Positions 12,880-28,431 of a DNA stretch of 64,000 nucleotides are shown here, one piece after another (the first letter of the stretch is position 1; the number at the start of each line of letters is the position of its first letter). The position numbers and the translations under genes are program-made. Source of the DNA: Bacteroidota bacterium (GTDB lineage: Bacteria; Bacteroidota; Ignavibacteria; Ignavibacteriales; Ignavibacteriaceae); NCBI GenBank assembly GCA_021777835.1, contig JAJYDC010000003.1:62001-126000 (forward strand), read 5' to 3'. Under the pieces are notes generated by a model, which was not told where the DNA came from, made no database searches, and saw only the letters and a program-made list of their open reading frames with translations.

Positions 12880-15096
12880 ATGAATAAAGCCATTTTTATT
12901 TTTATTCTGACAATAACGGTTAATTCCTACCCGCAAATTAAAGGTTTAGTAACACTTAATGAAATAATGTTTACACCTCAGATAGACCAAAATGAGTTCG
13001 TTGAATTATATAATTCAAATAATAAGGATTCGGTTGATCTTAATAATTTCAAAATTAAATATTATTCTTCACAGCCTAATATAATTACGTCAGCAGGTTT
13101 CGGTACAATGCTGCCGCCAAAATCATATGCTATAGTCTTAGAAGGGGATTATGATATTTTTAGCGGGATTTACACCTCTGTAATTCCCCAAGAAGCACTA
13201 ATATTAAAAATTAAAGAAGGTTCATTCGGTACATCAGGGATGGCAAACACAATTGGTAGGCCTTTATGGTTACTAGATAATTTAAACGACACTTTGGATG
13301 TTTATACCTATTCAGCAAATAACAATAAAGGTTATTCCGATGAAAAGGTATTAAGTAGTAAAGACAGTTCAAAGTCAAATTGGAAGAATTCAATTATGCC
13401 TAATGGAACGCCGGGATTTCTTAATTCAGTTTCACCGAAGGAATCTGATTTAGCAATAACTGATATTGTAATAATTCCTGATTCTACTAATATTGGAAAG
13501 TATTTCAAAATTGAAGTGGTAGTTCAGAACGAAGGCACTAAAGAAGAAAACTTCTCTCTGCAACTTTTTGAGGATACAAACCTTGATTCTTTGCCGGATG
13601 TAATGCTTCAAGATTATACTCAGCTTTTTCTTGCGCCTAAGCAATCAACATCATTTATCACTGATTACGTAGTTCATAATTTCCAAAACAAAAAAGGATT
13701 TTATGCAAAAATTTATTGCAAGGATGATCAAGTTGAGTATAATGATTATTTCTATAAATCTGTCTTGCCTGACACATATGACTCGGTAATTTTTATAAAT
13801 GAAGTAATGTATAGTCCAGCTAACGGAGAATCCGAATGGGTCGAAATTTATAATACTTCAAATGATTCAATTAGTCTAAAGGATTGGTCAATAACAGATA
13901 TTCTAACCACACCTGCTAAAGCAACAATAAATAATAAATTCTATATACCGCCAAATTCATATCTGGTTATATTAAAAGATTCATCATTTATGAATTATTC
14001 TAATTTAATATCACAAAAAGTTTTAATCCTGAATTTACCTGTTCTAAATAATGATAATGATGGTATAGTACTAAAAAATAACCTCGGAATTACAATTGAT
14101 TCTCTTTTTTACAAAAATACCTGGGGTGGAACTTCCGGATATTCATTAGAAAGAATTTCATTGTCTGCCCCAACTAATGATAGCACTAATTGGATGACAT
14201 GTATCAATAAAAACAAAAGCACTCCGGGACAGCCTAATTCATCAAACGAAATAATACCTTACAATATGGGCGAGATGGTAATAAACGAAATAATGTTTGA
14301 TCCTGCAGTTGATAATAGCGAGTTTATTGAATTTCTAAATACTAGTTTAAAAGCAATAAATATCGGAGGTTGGAAAATTGAATTTGAAGATAAAAGTTAT
14401 CATAATATTACTAATACAGGACTTTCTGTCCCATCCGGAGCTTATTTTGTATTAAGTTCTGACTCATCCTATATATCGAAATATTCTCTATCTAATTCTA
14501 GGTTACGGAATGTTTTAAATAAAGCATCAATTGGCTTAACCAATTCAGGAAAATTAATTTTGCTAAAAGATGCCCTAGGAAATACAATTGATTCAGTCCG
14601 GTATTCAGCATCCTGGCATAATAAAAATTTGGTTAGCACAAAAAATATTTCTCTAGAAAGAATAAATCCGAGATTAAATGGAAATGATCGACTTAATTGG
14701 AGTAGCTCGACTGATAAAAATGGTGCGACTCCTTCGAAGCAAAACAGTATCTTTTCTATTATAATAGATAAAGCTGCAAATATTTCTGTATCAACAAATC
14801 CATTTTCTCCCGATAACGATGGATTCGAAGACTTTACTATTATTAATTATCATCTTACTCAAAGGATCTCGCAAATAAGAATAAAAATATTCGATAGTCA
14901 GGGCAGACTTGTTAGAACTTTGATTAATAACCAAGCAAGTGGATCGAATGGATCTGTGGTTTTTAATGGCCTTGATGATGCAGGGTTTCCCCTAAGAATC
15001 GGAATTTATATAATTTTTCTTGAAGCTCTGAATGAAAATTTTGGTACTATTGAAAATATAAAAATTCCTGTTGTAATAGCAAGAAAGCTTCGCTAA
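12880..15096 (+). CDS. Secreted protein with three lamin-tail domains and a FlgD-Ig-like C-terminal domain
   Basis: A 738-aa protein with a signal peptide (residues 1-19, FIFILTITVNSYPQ). Three lamin-tail (LTD) modules begin with VTLNEIMFTP (~24), IFINEVMYSP (~305) and MVINEIMFDP (~468), each followed by an EFVELYN/EWVEIYN/EFIEFLN strand. A CARDB-like Ig segment lies between the first and second (~190-295). The C-terminal ~90 residues (NPFSPDNDG, then IKIFDSQGRLVRTL and IGIYIIFLEA) look like a FlgD-type Ig domain rather than a full T9SS sorting domain. Probably an extracellular or surface adhesive protein. AAGGGG precedes the ATG, and a hairpin terminator follows. Confidence 0.82.
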   Translation: MNKAIFIFILTITVNSYPQIKGLVTLNEIMFTPQIDQNEFVELYNSNNKDSVDLNNFKIKYYSSQPNIITSAGFGTMLPPKSYAIVLEGDYDIFSGIYTSVIPQEALILKIKEGSFGTSGMANTIGRPLWLLDNLNDTLDVYTYSANNNKGYSDEKVLSSKDSSKSNWKNSIMPNGTPGFLNSVSPKESDLAITDIVIIPDSTNIGKYFKIEVVVQNEGTKEENFSLQLFEDTNLDSLPDVMLQDYTQLFLAPKQSTSFITDYVVHNFQNKKGFYAKIYCKDDQVEYNDYFYKSVLPDTYDSVIFINEVMYSPANGESEWVEIYNTSNDSISLKDWSITDILTTPAKATINNKFYIPPNSYLVILKDSSFMNYSNLISQKVLILNLPVLNNDNDGIVLKNNLGITIDSLFYKNTWGGTSGYSLERISLSAPTNDSTNWMTCINKNKSTPGQPNSSNEIIPYNMGEMVINEIMFDPAVDNSEFIEFLNTSLKAINIGGWKIEFEDKSYHNITNTGLSVPSGAYFVLSSDSSYISKYSLSNSRLRNVLNKASIGLTNSGKLILLKDALGNTIDSVRYSASWHNKNLVSTKNISLERINPRLNGNDRLNWSSSTDKNGATPSKQNSIFSIIIDKAANISVSTNPFSPDNDGFEDFTIINYHLTQRISQIRIKIFDSQGRLVRTLINNQASGSNGSVVFNGLDDAGFPLRIGIYIIFLEALNENFGTIENIKIPVVIARKLR

Positions 15097-19915: not shown

Positions 19916-21256
19916 ATGTCTGAATACATAGCCAAGTTAATGTCGGAAGTTAAGGCCAAAAACCCTAACGAACCTGAATTTCATCAAGCAGTTCAAGAAA
20001 TAGTTGAATCTCTTGAGGTGGTTTTAGAACGTCATCCTGAATACCGTTCCGCTAAAATTTTAGAGCGCATGGTAGAACCTGAAAGACTAATTATGTTCCG
20101 CGTTCCCTGGATGGATGATCAAGGTGATATCCATATTAATCGCGGATTTAGAATTGATATGAACAGCGCGATCGGACCTTATAAAGGAGGTCTAAGATTT
20201 CACCCTTCTGTTAATTTGGGAATTTTGAAATTCCTAGCATTTGAACAAGTACTTAAAAATAGTTTGACAACATTACCTATGGGTGGCGGAAAAGGTGGTT
20301 CTGATTTTGATCCCAAAGGAAAAAGTGATAATGAAGTTATGCATTTCTGCCAAAGTTTTATGACTGAGCTTTTCCGTCATATTGGACCGAATACAGACGT
20401 TCCTGCAGGCGATATTGGAGTAGGCACAAGGGAAATCGGATTCTTATTCGGACAGTATAAGAGATTGAAAAATGAATTTACAGGCGTTCTTACGGGCAAA
20501 GGATTGAATTGGGGCGGCTCCCTTATTCGTCCGGAAGCAACCGGATTTGGTGCAGTTTACTTTGCACATGAAATGTTAAAAACCAAAGGTATGGATATAG
20601 AAGGTAAAACCTTTGCCGTTTCAGGATTTGGAAATGTTGCCTGGGGAGTAATTCAAAAGATAAATCAACTCGGCGGTAGGGTTGTTACTATTTCTGGCCC
20701 GGATGGATTTGTTTATGATAAATTCGGCGTTAAAGGAGAAAAAGTCGATTTCATTTTACAGATGAGAGCTAGTGCTAATGATAGGGTGCAGGAATATGCT
20801 GATAAGTTTAAAGTGGAATTCTATCCCGGTAAACGTCCTTGGGGTGTGAAGACTGATGTTGCAATGCCTTGCGCTACTCAAAACGAAATCTTTGTTGATG
20901 ACGCAAAGGAGCTTCTCAAAAATGGTTGCCAATGTGTTTGTGAAGCTGCAAATATGCCTACAACGCTTGATGCATATAAAATCTTTAGAGATTCGGGAAT
21001 ATTATTTGCTCCCGGTAAGGCTGCTAACGCGGGCGGAGTAGCTGTCTCTGGTTTAGAAATGTCTCAAAATAGCATGCGCCTTCCATGGCCTAAAGAGGAA
21101 GTCGATCACCGACTAAATCAAATTATGAAACAAATACACGATACCTGCATTTCAACTGCTGAGAGATTTGGTACTCCGGGTAACTATGTTAACGGTGCCA
21201 ATATTGCTGGCTTCCTCAAGGTTGCAGACGCTATGCTTGACCAAGGTCTTGTTTAA
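19916..21256 (+). CDS. gdhA: NADP-type glutamate dehydrogenase
   Basis: 446 aa; reversible reductive amination of 2-oxoglutarate to glutamate, a main ammonium-assimilation route. Visible motifs: IGPYKGGLRFHPSVN, LPMGGGKGGSDFDPKGK (the catalytic Lys region), GPNTDVPAGDIGVG, and the Rossmann motif VSGFGNVAWG. The length and FHPSVN/DFDPKGKSD blocks fit the bacterial hexameric NADP-dependent class. A terminator follows at 21310-21335. Regulation may involve the inverted repeat upstream. Confidence 0.95.
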   Translation: MSEYIAKLMSEVKAKNPNEPEFHQAVQEIVESLEVVLERHPEYRSAKILERMVEPERLIMFRVPWMDDQGDIHINRGFRIDMNSAIGPYKGGLRFHPSVNLGILKFLAFEQVLKNSLTTLPMGGGKGGSDFDPKGKSDNEVMHFCQSFMTELFRHIGPNTDVPAGDIGVGTREIGFLFGQYKRLKNEFTGVLTGKGLNWGGSLIRPEATGFGAVYFAHEMLKTKGMDIEGKTFAVSGFGNVAWGVIQKINQLGGRVVTISGPDGFVYDKFGVKGEKVDFILQMRASANDRVQEYADKFKVEFYPGKRPWGVKTDVAMPCATQNEIFVDDAKELLKNGCQCVCEAANMPTTLDAYKIFRDSGILFAPGKAANAGGVAVSGLEMSQNSMRLPWPKEEVDHRLNQIMKQIHDTCISTAERFGTPGNYVNGANIAGFLKVADAMLDQGLV

Positions 21257-21309
21257 TATTGAATGTAAAGTATCTTAGTGCAGTAAATTAGCTTAATGTG
21301 CTTCAAATG

Positions 21310-21340
21310 AGAAATCTCCTGTAAAGGAGATTTCTTTATT
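21310..21340 (+). terminator. Rho-independent terminator after gdhA
   Basis: AGAAATCTCC (21310-21319) pairs with GGAGATTTCT (21326-21335) around TGTAAA, followed by TTATTTG. About 55 bases after the gdhA stop. Confidence 0.85.
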
Positions 21341-21393: not shown

Positions 21394-24300
21394 GTGACAG
21401 ATAAGTTAGTCAATTCGATAATGGATAAATTTAATATCATCGATATTGAAGATATTTTTAGTACCCGCATTAAAGAATTCCAAAAATTAATGCGATACAA
21501 GATCCGTGAGATCTTGCTCATCTCAAGTTTATATGATTATTATCTATTTGAAGAAGATGGAAGATTGTATGAGCTTATTCGCCAGGATTATCAGCTTCTA
21601 AACTTAAGTCAGGCCCCTGAAATTACTCATGTTACTACAGGATCTGAAGCCTTAGAGCTTGCTCTTGAAGATAATCGCTTCGACTTAATTATCACAACTC
21701 TGCACATCGAGGATATGCACGTAATTAAGTTTGCTCGACTTATTCGGGATGCTGGTATCAAAACTCCGATAATTCTGTTAGCATATGATAATCGTGAAAG
21801 AAAGGATTTAATAGCAAATTATGATACTTCTATATTTGATAGAATTTTTATTTGGCAGGGAGATTACCGCCTCTTAATAGGTATAATTAAGTATGCCGAA
21901 GATAGAATTAATGTTGAAAATGACACGTCAGTTGTTGGCGTTCAGGTAATAATTTTAGTCGAGGATAACGTAAAGTTTTATTCTGCTTACCTTCCGTTAA
22001 TTTATACTGAAATATTCGATCAATCGCAGCGCCTTCTTTCTGAAGGAGTTAATCTAACTCATAAATTTTTAAGAATGCGTGCCCGTCCGAAAATACTACT
22101 TTGTACTACCTATGAGGAAGCCTGGGAATATTATACTAAGTATGAAGACTTTATCCTCGGAATAATTACAGACAGCAATTTTAGACATTTCGGTGTTAGA
22201 GATCCGGAAGCAGGTATAAAGTTTGCCAAGAATGTTAAAGCCCAGCACAAGGATATTCCAATTCTTCTTCAATCTAGTAATGCTGAATTTGCAGAAAAAG
22301 CTAAAGAAGTTGGTGCAGACTTCCTTCTAAAAGGCTCACCAAAGCTTTTACACGAACTTCGTAAGTTTATCATGAATAATCTAGGCTTCGGCGATTTTAT
22401 ATTTCAATCTGCTGATGGAAAAAAAGTGGGACGCGCCGGTAATCTTAAAACGCTTGAAGAACAATTAAAAATTGTTCCTGATGAAAGTATCTTTTACCAT
22501 GCCGAAAGAAACGACTATTCAAAGTGGCTAAAAGCTAGAACTGAATTTTGGTTAGCTCATAAATTAAGACCAAGAAAAGTATCGGACTTTAAAAATTCTG
22601 CCGAACTAAGAAATGAATTAATTACTTCAATTCATCTTTATCAGGAAAATAGACTTAAAGGTATAATCACAGATTTTACTAAAGAATCGTTCGATGACAA
22701 AAATAGTTTCGCTAGAATCGGCGGTGGCTCACTAGGCGGAAAGGCTCGCGGTCTTGGTTTTATAAATACTCTAATTAACAATGACAAGATAAAAAATAAA
22801 TTTGCCGGGATTGAAATCTCTGTTCCCTCTGCTGTCGTTATTGCTACGGATGTATTCGATCAATTTCTGGAAGATAATCGACTAGATATTTTTGCTCTGG
22901 GAGGACTTGAGGACGATGAAATTACAAGTCGATTTCTTAATGCAAGCATCTTTCCGCTTGAAATTGTAACTAAGCTAATTGATTTCCTTAGTGCTAATCA
23001 CGAACCACTTGCAGTCCGCTCCTCAAGTTTGCTTGAGGATTCACAGTTTCAGCCTTTTGCTGGTGTATATCAAACTTATATGATCCCCAACAATAATCCT
23101 GATCCTAAATCTCGACTTGAACAATTACTGCAATGTATCAAAGGCGTTTACGCCTCTACATTTTACAAAAAAGCTCAAGATTATATGAGGGCTACAACCT
23201 ACCGTCTTGAAGAAGAAAAGATGGCTGTTATTATTCAAAGGCTTGTAGGGGCTCAGCGTGATGGACGCTTTTACCCTGATTTTTCTGGCGTAGCTAAGTC
23301 ATATAATTTCTATCCAGTCTCTCCCCAAAAATCATCAGACGGAATAGCAATGGTAGGGCTGGGACTTGGAAAACAGGTAGTTGACGGAGGCAATGCTGTT
23401 AGATTCTGTCCAAGATACCCAAAGCATATGATGCAATTCTTTTCGGCAAAAGAAACTATTCGAAATGCGCAACAGGAGTTTTTCGCACTCGATATAAATG
23501 ATCATTCAAATAAAGTATTAACAGGTAAACCTGACAATTTTATTAAAAAATTCGACTTAAAAAAAGCTGAAGAAGATAATACTTTATTAAACGTCGGCTC
23601 AACATACTCAGTAGAAAATGATGCTGTGTATGACGGCGTTTCAAGACCCGGCCAACGAGTTGTTACTTTTGCACCAATCCTTAAGCAAAAGGTTTTTCCA
23701 CTCGCCGATATTTTAGATATACTGCTTGATATGGGAGCTTGGGGAATGGGCGTTCCTGTTGAAATTGAATTTGCAGTAAATCTTGACGTCCCTACCGGAA
23801 ATCCTAAAGAATTCGCAATGCTTCAAATGCGTCCGTTGGTTATTAGCCATGAACTTGAAGAACTCGATGTTGATTCTGCAAATAACGAAGATTTGATATG
23901 TCAAAGCCAGCAGGTGCTTGGCAATGGCGCAACTAAAGATATTTATGATGTGGTATTTGTTGATATTCAAAAATTTGATCGCTCCAAAAGCAGAGAAGCT
24001 GCATCTGAAGTTAGTTATTTCAATTCACTCTTACTCGATCAGAAAAGACCTTATATACTAATTGGCGTAGGTAGATGGGGAAGCCTTGACCAATGGCTTG
24101 GTATACCTGTTACCTGGGATCAAATTGCCGGCGCCTCTGTTATTGTGGAATCAGGATTTAAGGATTTTAATGTTACTCCGTCTCAAGGCTCTCACTTTTT
24201 CCAAAACATTACATCATTTAAAACAGGCTATTTTACAGTCAATGATATGAATAAGTCAGGGTTTATCGACTGGAAATGGCTTCTTTCTCAAAAGTCATTA

Positions 24301-24402
24301 AAAGAATTAAACTATACTCGTCACCTAAGATTTGATGAATCTATTACAGTTAAAATCAATGGTCACAAAGGCAAAGGGGTTATATCTAAGCCGGGAAAAT
24401 GA
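21394..24402 (+). CDS. Double receiver-like domain + PEP-synthase-type ATP-grasp protein
   Basis: 1002 aa. Residues ~35-170 resemble a receiver fold but lack the phospho-Asp (DLIITTLH at ~97-104) and the conserved Lys. Residues ~183-328 form a second receiver with key residues in place: E190-D191, D260 in GIITDSNF, S294/S295, K313 in FLLKGS. Residues ~440-830 are a PPDK N-terminal ATP-grasp domain (RIGGGSLGGKARGLGF at 441-456; EPLAVRSSSLLEDS with R542; LQMRPLV at its end). The C-terminal ~170 residues contain VGRWGSLDQWLGIPV and match no domain I can name. There is no phosphohistidine swivel domain and no PEP-binding barrel, so it cannot be a complete PEP synthase. GTG start at 21394, or ATG at 21421. 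It stands alone after a terminator. Confidence 0.85.
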   Translation: MTDKLVNSIMDKFNIIDIEDIFSTRIKEFQKLMRYKIREILLISSLYDYYLFEEDGRLYELIRQDYQLLNLSQAPEITHVTTGSEALELALEDNRFDLIITTLHIEDMHVIKFARLIRDAGIKTPIILLAYDNRERKDLIANYDTSIFDRIFIWQGDYRLLIGIIKYAEDRINVENDTSVVGVQVIILVEDNVKFYSAYLPLIYTEIFDQSQRLLSEGVNLTHKFLRMRARPKILLCTTYEEAWEYYTKYEDFILGIITDSNFRHFGVRDPEAGIKFAKNVKAQHKDIPILLQSSNAEFAEKAKEVGADFLLKGSPKLLHELRKFIMNNLGFGDFIFQSADGKKVGRAGNLKTLEEQLKIVPDESIFYHAERNDYSKWLKARTEFWLAHKLRPRKVSDFKNSAELRNELITSIHLYQENRLKGIITDFTKESFDDKNSFARIGGGSLGGKARGLGFINTLINNDKIKNKFAGIEISVPSAVVIATDVFDQFLEDNRLDIFALGGLEDDEITSRFLNASIFPLEIVTKLIDFLSANHEPLAVRSSSLLEDSQFQPFAGVYQTYMIPNNNPDPKSRLEQLLQCIKGVYASTFYKKAQDYMRATTYRLEEEKMAVIIQRLVGAQRDGRFYPDFSGVAKSYNFYPVSPQKSSDGIAMVGLGLGKQVVDGGNAVRFCPRYPKHMMQFFSAKETIRNAQQEFFALDINDHSNKVLTGKPDNFIKKFDLKKAEEDNTLLNVGSTYSVENDAVYDGVSRPGQRVVTFAPILKQKVFPLADILDILLDMGAWGMGVPVEIEFAVNLDVPTGNPKEFAMLQMRPLVISHELEELDVDSANNEDLICQSQQVLGNGATKDIYDVVFVDIQKFDRSKSREAASEVSYFNSLLLDQKRPYILIGVGRWGSLDQWLGIPVTWDQIAGASVIVESGFKDFNVTPSQGSHFFQNITSFKTGYFTVNDMNKSGFIDWKWLLSQKSLKELNYTRHLRFDESITVKINGHKGKGVISKPGK

Positions 24403-24558: not shown

Positions 24559-25179
24559 ATGAATCATCTTAAGTTTCCCGCTAATATTGCCAAATTATTT
24601 ATCCTCTTTTCTTTCCTGATGTCATTTCTATTCTTCGGCTGCACTAAGAAATTTCCTGAAGATAAGAATATATCAGGCGTGAATTATACCCTGCTTAACC
24701 AGGATAGTACTAAAGTAAACTTCCCATCTGATTTTAAAGGGCACATCCTTGTGATTACTTTTATTTATACAAATTGCCCTGATATATGTCCGATGACAAC
24801 TCATAATATGCAGGAAGTACAAAAGAAACTTGCTGATGAAGGGATACACGACGTACAATTTGCAGCCATGTCATTTGACCCTAATCGCGATACTCCCAAG
24901 GTTTTAAAAGAATATGCAGAAGTAAGAGACATGAAATTAAATAATTTTGTCTTCCTTACCGGAAATAAGAAGGATGTGGATTCTATACTTCATGAGTTTG
25001 ACTTCATAGCTATACCTGGTGATACAACCTTTGTCGATAAAACGCATCCGGTCTATTTTTTCACTCATACCGATAAACTTTTTCTTGTTGATAAAAAGGG
25101 AAGAATTAGAACCTCTTTTCGAGGCAGTAAAGTAAACTCTCAAAAATTAATTTCAGATATAAAATCCTTGGAGAATTAA
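24559..25179 (+). CDS. Sco1/SenC-family copper-binding lipoprotein
   Basis: 206 aa. The N-terminal hydrophobic segment ends in FLFFGC, a lipobox with Cys28. The thioredoxin-like domain carries the copper/redox motif CPDIC (C73, C77) in YTNCPDICPMTT and the distal His in a THTDKLFLVDKKGR segment (H170). Sco proteins deliver copper to, or keep reduced, the CuA site of cytochrome oxidase, here from the periplasmic face of a membrane. A PCuAC gene follows by one base, the usual partner. No oxidase genes are in the window. Confidence 0.92.
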   Translation: MNHLKFPANIAKLFILFSFLMSFLFFGCTKKFPEDKNISGVNYTLLNQDSTKVNFPSDFKGHILVITFIYTNCPDICPMTTHNMQEVQKKLADEGIHDVQFAAMSFDPNRDTPKVLKEYAEVRDMKLNNFVFLTGNKKDVDSILHEFDFIAIPGDTTFVDKTHPVYFFTHTDKLFLVDKKGRIRTSFRGSKVNSQKLISDIKSLEN

Positions 25180-25180
25180 A

Positions 25181-25585
25181 ATGACTTTTGTATTAGCATT
25201 TATTATGTTACTTAATTTCCATTCTCAAAAAATTGATGTAGAAAATGCATGGCTCCGTCCAGCCAACAAAGGTATGAATAGCGCGCTATATTTTAAGGTT
25301 AATAATAACTCAAATATACCTGACACATTGTTAAAAGTTACTTCAAATATTGCAGGACTTATTCAACTGCATGAATCATATCTAACTAAAGGTATGATGG
25401 GAATGCGCGAAGTTAAATACGTTGTCTTTAAAGCCCATTCAACTTTCACATTTAAAGAAGGCGGGTATCACGTTATGCTTTTGTTCTTGAAAAAGAACTT
25501 GAAACCTAACTCAAGCGAAATATTCTTCCTTCACTTTAAAAACTCCGGTACGTTAAAAATTAAAGCTCTTGTGAAAAAAGGATAA
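25181..25585 (+). CDS. PCu(A)C-type periplasmic copper chaperone
   Basis: 134 aa with an N-terminal export segment (FVLAFIMLLNFHSQ). The beta-sandwich begins VENAWLRPANKGMNSALYF. The copper ligands follow the family H-M-H-M spacing: LIQLHES, then GMMGMREV, then GGYHVMLLFL. Family members bind Cu(I) in the periplasm and act with Sco in CuA-site assembly. Co-transcribed with the Sco gene (one-base gap). Confidence 0.9.
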   Translation: MTFVLAFIMLLNFHSQKIDVENAWLRPANKGMNSALYFKVNNNSNIPDTLLKVTSNIAGLIQLHESYLTKGMMGMREVKYVVFKAHSTFTFKEGGYHVMLLFLKKNLKPNSSEIFFLHFKNSGTLKIKALVKKG

Positions 25586-26763: not shown

Positions 26764-28431
26764 ATGCAATTAACCTCAGAAAATATTGTCACATTTTTGT
26801 TAAGCATAAGCCTGATGTTGTTATCTGCTAAATTAATAGGGGAGCTTTTCAATAAAATAGGTCAACCTGCCGTAGTGGGAGAAATTATTGCAGGAATTAT
26901 CTTGGGACCTACTGTATTTGGCTCGTTACTTCCTCATACATATAATTGGCTGTTTCCGCAAAATAATGGTGTAAAAGTCGCGCTTGATGGAATTGTGAAC
27001 CTTGCAGTTATTATGCTTCTTCTTGTTTCTGGATTGGAGGTTGACCTCTCAGTAGTTGTAAAAGAAGGAAAGACGGCTTTTTTAACAGGTGTTATGGGAA
27101 TTATAATTCCGTTTGCCCTTGGATTTACTGCGGCATATTTCTTCCCACATTTATTGGGAATAAAAGACGACAATTTGAAACTAGCCTTTGCACTGTTTAT
27201 TGGAATCGCATTGTCAATCTCTGCTTTGCCCGTTATTGTAAAAACTCTAATGGACTTAGGAATATTTAAGACGGAGATCGGTTACATTATTGTTGCTGCA
27301 GCTATGTTTAACGATATTGTTGGATGGCTGATTTTTTCTATTATTCTCAGCATGATTGGGGCTAATAATGGACATACCTTTAACCAGACTTTAATATTAC
27401 TTATTGCCTTCACTCTTTTTGTTCTCCTAATCTTGAGAAAGATAATAAACAAAATAATTCCTTGGATACAGAAGAATCTAAATTTTCCCGGTGGCGTGCT
27501 AAACTTTATATTAATCCTTGGGTTCCTTAGCGCCGCTTTTACAGAATATATTGGTATACACGCAATTTTCGGATCATTCATTATGGGTATTGCTATAGGA
27601 GACTCTGTACACATAAAGGAAAGGACAAAAGAAATTATTCAGCAATTTATTACAAATATTTTCGCGCCCTTATTCTTTGTGTCTATCGGCCTCACTGTTA
27701 ACTTTATTACAAACTTTAATTTCTTAATAGTAGCTGTAATTCTAATTTTTGCATTCTTTGGCAAAGTAATAGGCTGTGGTATAGGAGCTAGATTTGCTGG
27801 GTTAAATAAGAACGATTCACTTGCAGTTGGCTTTGGTATGAATTCCCGGGGTGCTATGGAAATTATCCTTGGAATATTAGCTTTTCAATATGGACTAATT
27901 CATGCAAATGTTTTTGTTGCTCTTGTAATTATGGCTCTTGTTACTTCCGTATCCAGTGCTCCGTTTATGAAATATTTTCTAAAGGTAAAGGAAAATCTCT
28001 TAAACATTTTAAGCCCAAATTTAGTGTTATTTACTAATTTCACTGATAAGAATGAAGTTATTAAAGAATTAGTAAATCAAGTAAGCAAAAATTTAAAGCT
28101 CAACTCTGACCAGATATATAGAGAAGTAATTGAAAGGGAAAATTCAATTCCAACAGGAATTGCTAATTATCTCGCCATCCCTCATGCAAGAGTAGATATA
28201 TCAAGGCCTGCAATTGCAATAGCTATAAATAAGAAAGGGATTGATTTTGAAGCCAGTGATGGAACTCCCTCACGGATAATTTTTCTCCTTTTAACACCGA
28301 AAAGTAAAAATGAACTTCAACTTAAACTTCTCGTTGAAATTGTAAATAAATTCAAAGATAAACAAAAAGTTGAGCAGCTTCTTCTATCTTCAAACACTAC
28401 TGATTTTATTTCAATGTTTAAGAATTCCTAA
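26764..28431 (+). CDS. Cation:proton antiporter (CPA2) fused to a PTS EIIA-like domain
   Basis: 555 aa. Residues ~1-400 are a Na+/H+ exchanger domain with about 12 membrane helices: KIGQPAVVGEIIAGIILGP, AMFNDIVGWLIF (Asp in the ion-binding helix), FFVSIGLTVNF, and FGMNSRGAMEIIL. Residues ~410-555 are a PTS EIIA type-2-like domain: IANYLAIPHARVD places His474 at the usual phosphorylation site, then IFLLLTPK and ELQLKLLVEIV. The fusion suggests transport controlled by phosphorylation or by binding at the EIIA fold. No PTS EI, HPr or sugar permease lies in the window. Coupled to the USP gene upstream (5-base gap). Confidence 0.92.
   Translation: MQLTSENIVTFLLSISLMLLSAKLIGELFNKIGQPAVVGEIIAGIILGPTVFGSLLPHTYNWLFPQNNGVKVALDGIVNLAVIMLLLVSGLEVDLSVVVKEGKTAFLTGVMGIIIPFALGFTAAYFFPHLLGIKDDNLKLAFALFIGIALSISALPVIVKTLMDLGIFKTEIGYIIVAAAMFNDIVGWLIFSIILSMIGANNGHTFNQTLILLIAFTLFVLLILRKIINKIIPWIQKNLNFPGGVLNFILILGFLSAAFTEYIGIHAIFGSFIMGIAIGDSVHIKERTKEIIQQFITNIFAPLFFVSIGLTVNFITNFNFLIVAVILIFAFFGKVIGCGIGARFAGLNKNDSLAVGFGMNSRGAMEIILGILAFQYGLIHANVFVALVIMALVTSVSSAPFMKYFLKVKENLLNILSPNLVLFTNFTDKNEVIKELVNQVSKNLKLNSDQIYREVIERENSIPTGIANYLAIPHARVDISRPAIAIAINKKGIDFEASDGTPSRIIFLLLTPKSKNELQLKLLVEIVNKFKDKQKVEQLLLSSNTTDFISMFKNS

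Follow-up and report, generated by a model that had tools for sequence, protein, structure and literature searches.

Regulatory kinases derived from PPDK are already known. In mycobacteria, VadK (Rv1127c), which derives from PPDK but lacks the barrel, phosphorylates itself on a histidine and interacts with enzymes of the methylcitrate cycle (PMC13400623). By analogy of architecture, it is the closest published precedent for the protein described here, which is encoded at 21394-24402 (+) of the window, i.e., of the whole 64,000-nucleotide stretch analyzed. Provided that the C-terminal domain (CTD) of the window protein is a swivel, both proteins combine an ATP-grasp domain with a phosphohistidine domain and lack the barrel, and for both, regulation of metabolic enzymes by direct interaction is a proposal. 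VadK, however, has neither receivers nor a nucleotidyltransferase (NTase). Its histidine can be located by PPDK overlay, whereas the putative swivel of the window protein is cryptic; and its partners are methylcitrate-cycle enzymes, whereas gene neighborhood points to glutamate dehydrogenase (GDH) as the partner of the window protein.

Other relatives are informative with respect to chemistry, which has been established for this family in studies of rifampin phosphotransferase (RPH) and HpeHI (PMC4844700, PMC12167813). RPH (PDB 5hv1, 5fbu) resembles the window protein in its ATP-grasp domain (Z ~22), in its swivel, as compared with the putative one here (Z 7.2), and in Lys22 and Arg117, both of which have counterparts in the window protein. 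The latter nevertheless has no rifampin-binding domain, reaches just 29.2 bits against NCBIfam NF041857 (cut-off 999), and carries a different CTD signature. PEP synthase and PPDK show the same domain order, an ATP-grasp followed by a (probable) swivel, but the window protein has neither their barrel nor the canonical TSHAA motif. In HpeHI and phenylphosphate synthase, a PEP-synthase-type ATP-grasp feeds the swivel histidine and the acceptor is not pyruvate; these enzymes differ in their split subunits, aromatic substrate-binding domain, and catabolic role (PMC12167813). The response regulators PleD and PorX, both found as Foldseek matches, likewise have tandem receivers or a receiver joined to an enzymatic output; in the window protein, by contrast, that output is a PEP-synthase-type ATP-grasp. 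The novelty here lies in the partnership with GDH, in the fused domains (receivers in one branch of the family, an NTase in another), and in a swivel-like domain that evades profiles.

GDH is one of the main points of ammonia entry and exit in Bacteroidota, and, to our knowledge, few regulators of bacterial GDH have been described. Reversible in vivo inactivation of GDH in Bacteroides fragilis was reportedly observed by Yamamoto, Saito and Ishimoto in the 1980s; we know of no gene responsible for it, and our literature search found no paper on such inactivation in this genus or on the window protein. The family described here lies beside GDH in related gut genera and offers a concrete candidate gene for such control, although only 7 of the 199 Bacteroidaceae genomes sampled carry it. 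Moreover, proteins labeled only “PEP/pyruvate-binding domain-containing” thereby gain a testable function.

Domain layout of the window protein

The open reading frame at 21394-24402 is real; stops occur throughout the antisense strand in register with it. The start codon is ambiguous: translation from GTG 21394 gives 1002 residues and from ATG 21421, 993 residues, and several relatives begin at the latter point, residue 10 of the longer form. The genome carries one copy of this gene and a separate PPDK. The AlphaFold model of the whole protein has a pLDDT of 75.9 and a pTM of 0.47.

Two receivers form the N-terminal part. Pfam Response_reg is found in the protein with an E-value of 2.3e-9 in two stretches, the better of which covers residues 67-149. 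The model of the first receiver (REC1; residues 37-173, 21502-21912) aligns with receiver domains at Z ~15, but the phospho-site position 101 is occupied by T, C, V, S, or I among relatives and never by Asp (T101/T102 in the window protein), and an invariant W154 stands at about the position of the switch Lys. REC2 (residues 184-332, 21943-22389), by contrast, is a receiver with the acidic pair, phospho-Asp, Ser/Thr, and Lys. Scanned alone, it reaches an E-value of only 0.0048 in Pfam, but in structural comparison receivers are matched at Z 15-16, 1nxp for instance with Z 16.1 and an rmsd of 1.9 over 113 residues. The acidic pocket E190/D191 is intact. Column counts across 72 full-length relatives show D260, the predicted phospho-acceptor (codon 22171-22173), and K313 in all 72, S294 in 71, and D191 in 70, with N in the other two. 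A family-specific insertion at 192-232 ends in the conserved motif LRMRARPK.

A helical segment resembling DUF5752 follows at residues 347-417 (22432-22644). Its Pfam E-value is 1.9e-7 when scanned alone, above the gathering score, and it is weakly conserved in the Bacteroidales homologue (E 0.008). The PPDK_N ATP-grasp occupies residues 446-823 (22729-23862; Pfam E 1.3e-34), and the model of residues 427-820 superimposes on PEP synthase 2ols with Z 22.4 and about as well on RPH; the nearest ATP-grasp profiles include PigC-type ligases. R542 is invariant in 94/94 relatives; K450, R542, E792, and Q811 are kept in essentially all 94, and E790 and R813 are also present. The PEP-synthase-type ATP-grasp is complete.

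These data bear out most of the first-pass annotation of this DNA, which had described a degenerate receiver devoid of phospho-Asp and Lys, an intact-looking second receiver, and a PPDK_N domain with R542 within a 1002-residue protein. It had also stated that the protein has no PEP/pyruvate barrel and cannot carry out the usual PEP synthase cycle. The profile search that it proposed found PPDK_N and Response_reg, with no match to any barrel family or to the PEP-utilizers family PF00391; the window protein is indeed not a PEP synthase. The DUF5752-like segment, the probable cryptic swivel, and the GDH next door had been overlooked.

The C-terminal domain and its invariant histidine

The chain ends 179 residues past the ATP-grasp. 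This region, the CTD (residues 826-1002, 23869-24399), is probably a diverged phosphohistidine swivel. It should be noted that sequence methods give no indication of this. PF00391 is absent from the window protein in the genome search (E ≤ 1) and from the CTD scanned alone (E ≤ 5), its matches in this genome being PTS enzyme I and PPDK only. Pfam returned nothing of note on the CTD; an hhalign comparison with the swivel domains of enzyme I (EI) gave no match; and the best Foldseek hit (E 0.12, with nothing below 0.1) is uninformative by itself.

The structural comparison points elsewhere. Predicted alone by AF2, the C-terminal 177 residues give a confident model (pLDDT 89.5, pTM 0.88). When this model was compared with 999 chains by VIA-align, phosphohistidine-type domains took ranks 1-9 with Z values of 5.8-7.2, which lie below the comfort level of Z 8 and, at Z 6-7, within the range for unrelated folds. 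The best match is residues 757-867 of RPH-Lm (Z 7.2, rmsd 3.0, 111 residues), followed by the additional domain at the C-terminus of two pyruvate kinases (Z 7.2), central domains of PPDK (Z 5.9-6.7, including PPDK 385-511), and enzyme I Ntr (EI-Ntr; Z 5.8). Many lower-ranked matches, such as aconitase, the GroEL apical domain, and the CPSase small subunit, have what we take to be the swivelling beta/beta/alpha fold of SCOP in a form without phosphohistidine.

Two further features are consistent with a swivel. The CTD sits directly after PPDK_N, as the swivel does in PEP synthase, and its family signature, GxGRWGxxDxWLG...S(Q/F)G(S/T)HFF in the alignment, includes a candidate phospho-accepting histidine. 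H934 (codon 24193-24195), along with GRWG (893-896) and S930, is invariant in 94/94 relatives. The helix to which it belongs comes after the strand 914-920, and the motif around it, SQGSHFF or SFGTHFF, recalls the TSH of true swivels; the swivel motif of the HpeHI study is T/SXXGGXXXH (PMC12167813). H934 forms the helix start in the full model and lies one residue inside the helix in the CTD model, the preceding loop being the least certain part of both (residues 931-934 score below 50 in the full model). Based on structure prediction, the CTD is likely, although not proven, to be a phosphohistidine swivel that escapes profile searches, with H934 at the expected helix start and in the phospho-accepting role. 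The annotation's statement that no such swivel exists, with which the sequence methods taken alone agree, is therefore probably wrong: nine swivels head the structural ranking and H934 is invariant, which speaks with moderate strength for a swivel, by structure and not by sequence. The window protein would then probably be a barrel-less ATP-to-histidine phosphotransferase.

Family members and their partnership with glutamate dehydrogenase

Three architectures can be distinguished. Type A is the full architecture with receivers (72 full-length relatives were counted). Type B, with 572-589 residues, is receiver-free, consists of the ATP-grasp and CTD only, and nests within type A in the tree. 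Type C, of ~1050 residues, has a C-terminal NTase with a GS...SDID motif in most members; a GAF domain was suspected by eye at its N-terminus, but Pfam gave no match there. B and C genes form an operon, with an overlap of 4-8 bases between them. Among 395 genomes of the phylum, 96 match the window protein, many of them through a receiver only; 69, mostly Ignavibacteria, match the Bacteroidales homologue at E ≤ 1e-10. A suspected homologue in B. thetaiotaomicron, BT_1971, is a catalase. Viral contigs searched with the window protein and with an NTase-fused relative contained no relatives, which gives no link to phages or mobile elements, and PADLOC (no matches at E ≤ 0.01) and PHROGs likewise gave no link to defense.

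The gene upstream of the window gene, at 19916-21256 (+), encodes an NADP-type GDH of 446 residues (Pfam ELFV_dehydrog, E 3e-86; NCBIfam NF006929, 741.9 bits against a cut-off of 536). This neighbor is conserved. Of the 72 type A loci, 59 have GDH as the immediate neighbor, as do 7/7 type B loci (a run of kinase genes being taken as one unit) and 12 of 15 type C loci; the other three type C loci have no GDH nearby. For type A, the count rises to 64/72 within three genes. Six of the remaining eight loci have only ~1.5 kb of flank and are barely testable, and the other two (L064 and L065, of one genus) are real exceptions. The genomes of these two also carry a type C copy, which stands beside GDH in L078, possibly reflecting a change of partner. 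When neighboring genes were clustered, GDH was found in 78 loci and the runner-up, a PAS-HisKA_3 histidine kinase, in 16. Chance is not a plausible source of this link, because, given a handful of GDH genes per roughly 3,000 genes, our estimate for adjacency by chance is well under 1% of loci.

The GDH link spans Ignavibacteria, the gut Bacteroidales genera Parabacteroides, Phocaeicola, and Prevotella, and one Krumholzibacteriia MAG (L020). GDH and the kinase gene share a strand in Ignavibacteria, whereas in Bacteroidales they are often divergent (Parabacteroides distasonis, Phocaeicola massiliensis, and others), which indicates that the link survives rearrangement. Type A goes with NADP-type GDH, while B and C go with a 428-residue GDH closer to the archaeal-type model. 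Many Ignavibacteria show the order GDH-A-(HK-RR)-GDH-A-GDH, in which the first A accompanies a 446-residue and the second a 453-residue GDH. The distance matrices of A and GDH correlate with r 0.80, a value reached in 0/2000 permutations, to which shared species history contributes. In the window, a hairpin of 12 pairs with a T-rich tail at 21309-21336 (+), possibly the GDH terminator, separates the two genes, so that co-transcription is not assured.

Several of these loci hold further genes of potential interest. In six of them (L011, L014, L036, L055, L056, and L059), a PAS-HisKA_3 kinase directly follows the first kinase copy and is a candidate source of REC2 phosphorylation; where these loci are long enough, the second GDH-kinase unit is preceded by a NarL-type regulator. 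In the GDH-B-C loci (L067:1262-6174, L068, L069, L070, L071, L072, and L090), type B overlaps a type C gene that may encode a nucleotidylylating GDH regulator. A type C protein beside GDH recalls, by analogy only, the covalent control of nitrogen enzymes by GlnD and GlnE; no HD or GlnE-type repeats were seen in type C, however, and homology was compared at the NTP_transf_2 domain only.

Gene neighborhood is an association and says nothing of what is done to GDH. It does provide a concrete functional context for a family for which the first-pass annotation knew of no assigned function, and the association with GDH suggests that a central enzyme of nitrogen metabolism is subject to a switch not described before.

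A possible GDH switch, its alternatives, and other genes of the window

Our main reading, to which we assign a probability of about one half, is that the window protein is a dedicated GDH regulator gated by REC2 and acting through phosphohistidine. The ATP-grasp would phosphorylate H934 of the swivel with release of AMP and Pi, as in PEP synthase, PPDK, and RPH. With the barrel absent, the phosphohistidine would not be spent on PEP synthesis; instead, it may control GDH, either because the phosphate is passed to GDH or because phosphorylation alters the binding of the protein to GDH. D260 of REC2, phosphorylated by a separate histidine kinase, would gate the reaction, and the degenerate REC1 might serve as a dimerization or relay module. 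The domain architecture, the invariant ATP-grasp and REC2 residues, and the genomic link to GDH are established; the swivel fold and the role of H934 come from structure prediction, and we infer the chemistry, the gating, the target, and the effect on it. The view of the first-pass annotation, that the protein resembles a phosphotransfer enzyme whose ATP-dependent output is gated, is supported as a likeness. Extended to the family, the reading is more tentative, and we consider it possible without favoring it: PEP-synthase-derived phosphohistidine kinases may have become dedicated to GDH control, with one branch receiver-gated and another bearing an NTase and sharing its operon with a kinase reduced to ATP-grasp and swivel. 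If true, this would be phosphohistidine signaling independent of the HisKA and HATPase machinery, and nitrogen assimilation would be under covalent control at GDH and not at glutamine synthetase or PII.

Two alternatives accept the phosphohistidine and assign it another acceptor. The protein could be a metabolic dikinase that passes phosphate from H934 to a small molecule from the metabolism of glutamate or 2-oxoglutarate, GDH adjoining as an enzyme of the same pathway. Wherever the acceptor of a characterized relative is known (RPH, HpeHI, phenylphosphate synthase), it is indeed a small molecule (PMC4844700, PMC12167813), and a substrate could be held by the DUF5752-like segment and by the insertions. 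Receivers in one branch and a fused NTase in another are, however, typical of regulatory proteins; no recognizable acceptor domain comparable to the RIF-binding domain remains, and the receiver-free form is reduced to ATP-grasp and CTD, all of which makes such an enzyme somewhat unlikely in our opinion. Alternatively, H934 could phosphorylate D260 in cis in a self-contained phosphorelay whose receivers are output, not input. The protein joins an intact receiver, invariant at D260 and K313, to a predicted source of phosphohistidine, and within the window no dedicated histidine kinase adjoins the gene. Yet receiver-free relatives keep the full ATP-grasp and the CTD with H934, so that the receiver is not the sole acceptor, and a classical histidine kinase lies between the units in some loci; we regard this relay as quite improbable.

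The remaining alternative dispenses with phosphotransfer altogether: the CTD would have the swivelling beta/beta/alpha fold but be a new binding domain, with the ATP-grasp acting as a ligase or as a nucleotide sensor that binds GDH. The lack of sequence similarity to PEP-utilizers, the many lower-ranked matches sharing the fold class, and the PigC-type ligases among the nearest ATP-grasp profiles fit this explanation. It accounts poorly for the nine best CTD matches, all phosphohistidine-type, for the location of the domain at the swivel position, and for the invariance of H934, and we judge it unlikely.

Some other genes of the window deserve mention. SCO1/SenC and PCu(A)C copper chaperones are encoded side by side at 24559-25585 (+), downstream of the kinase gene; being kept in the nearest relatives only, they are probably unrelated to the GDH-kinase link. 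A secreted protein encoded at 12880-15096 (+) combines three lamin-tail domains with what may be a type IX secretion signal (PF13585, scoring under its cut-off). Finally, the gene at 26764-28431 (+) encodes a fusion of a Na+/H+ exchanger (PF00999) with a PTS EIIA_2 domain (PF00359, E 4.5e-30); since the genome also encodes enzyme I, this antiporter may be under the control of PTS phosphohistidine.
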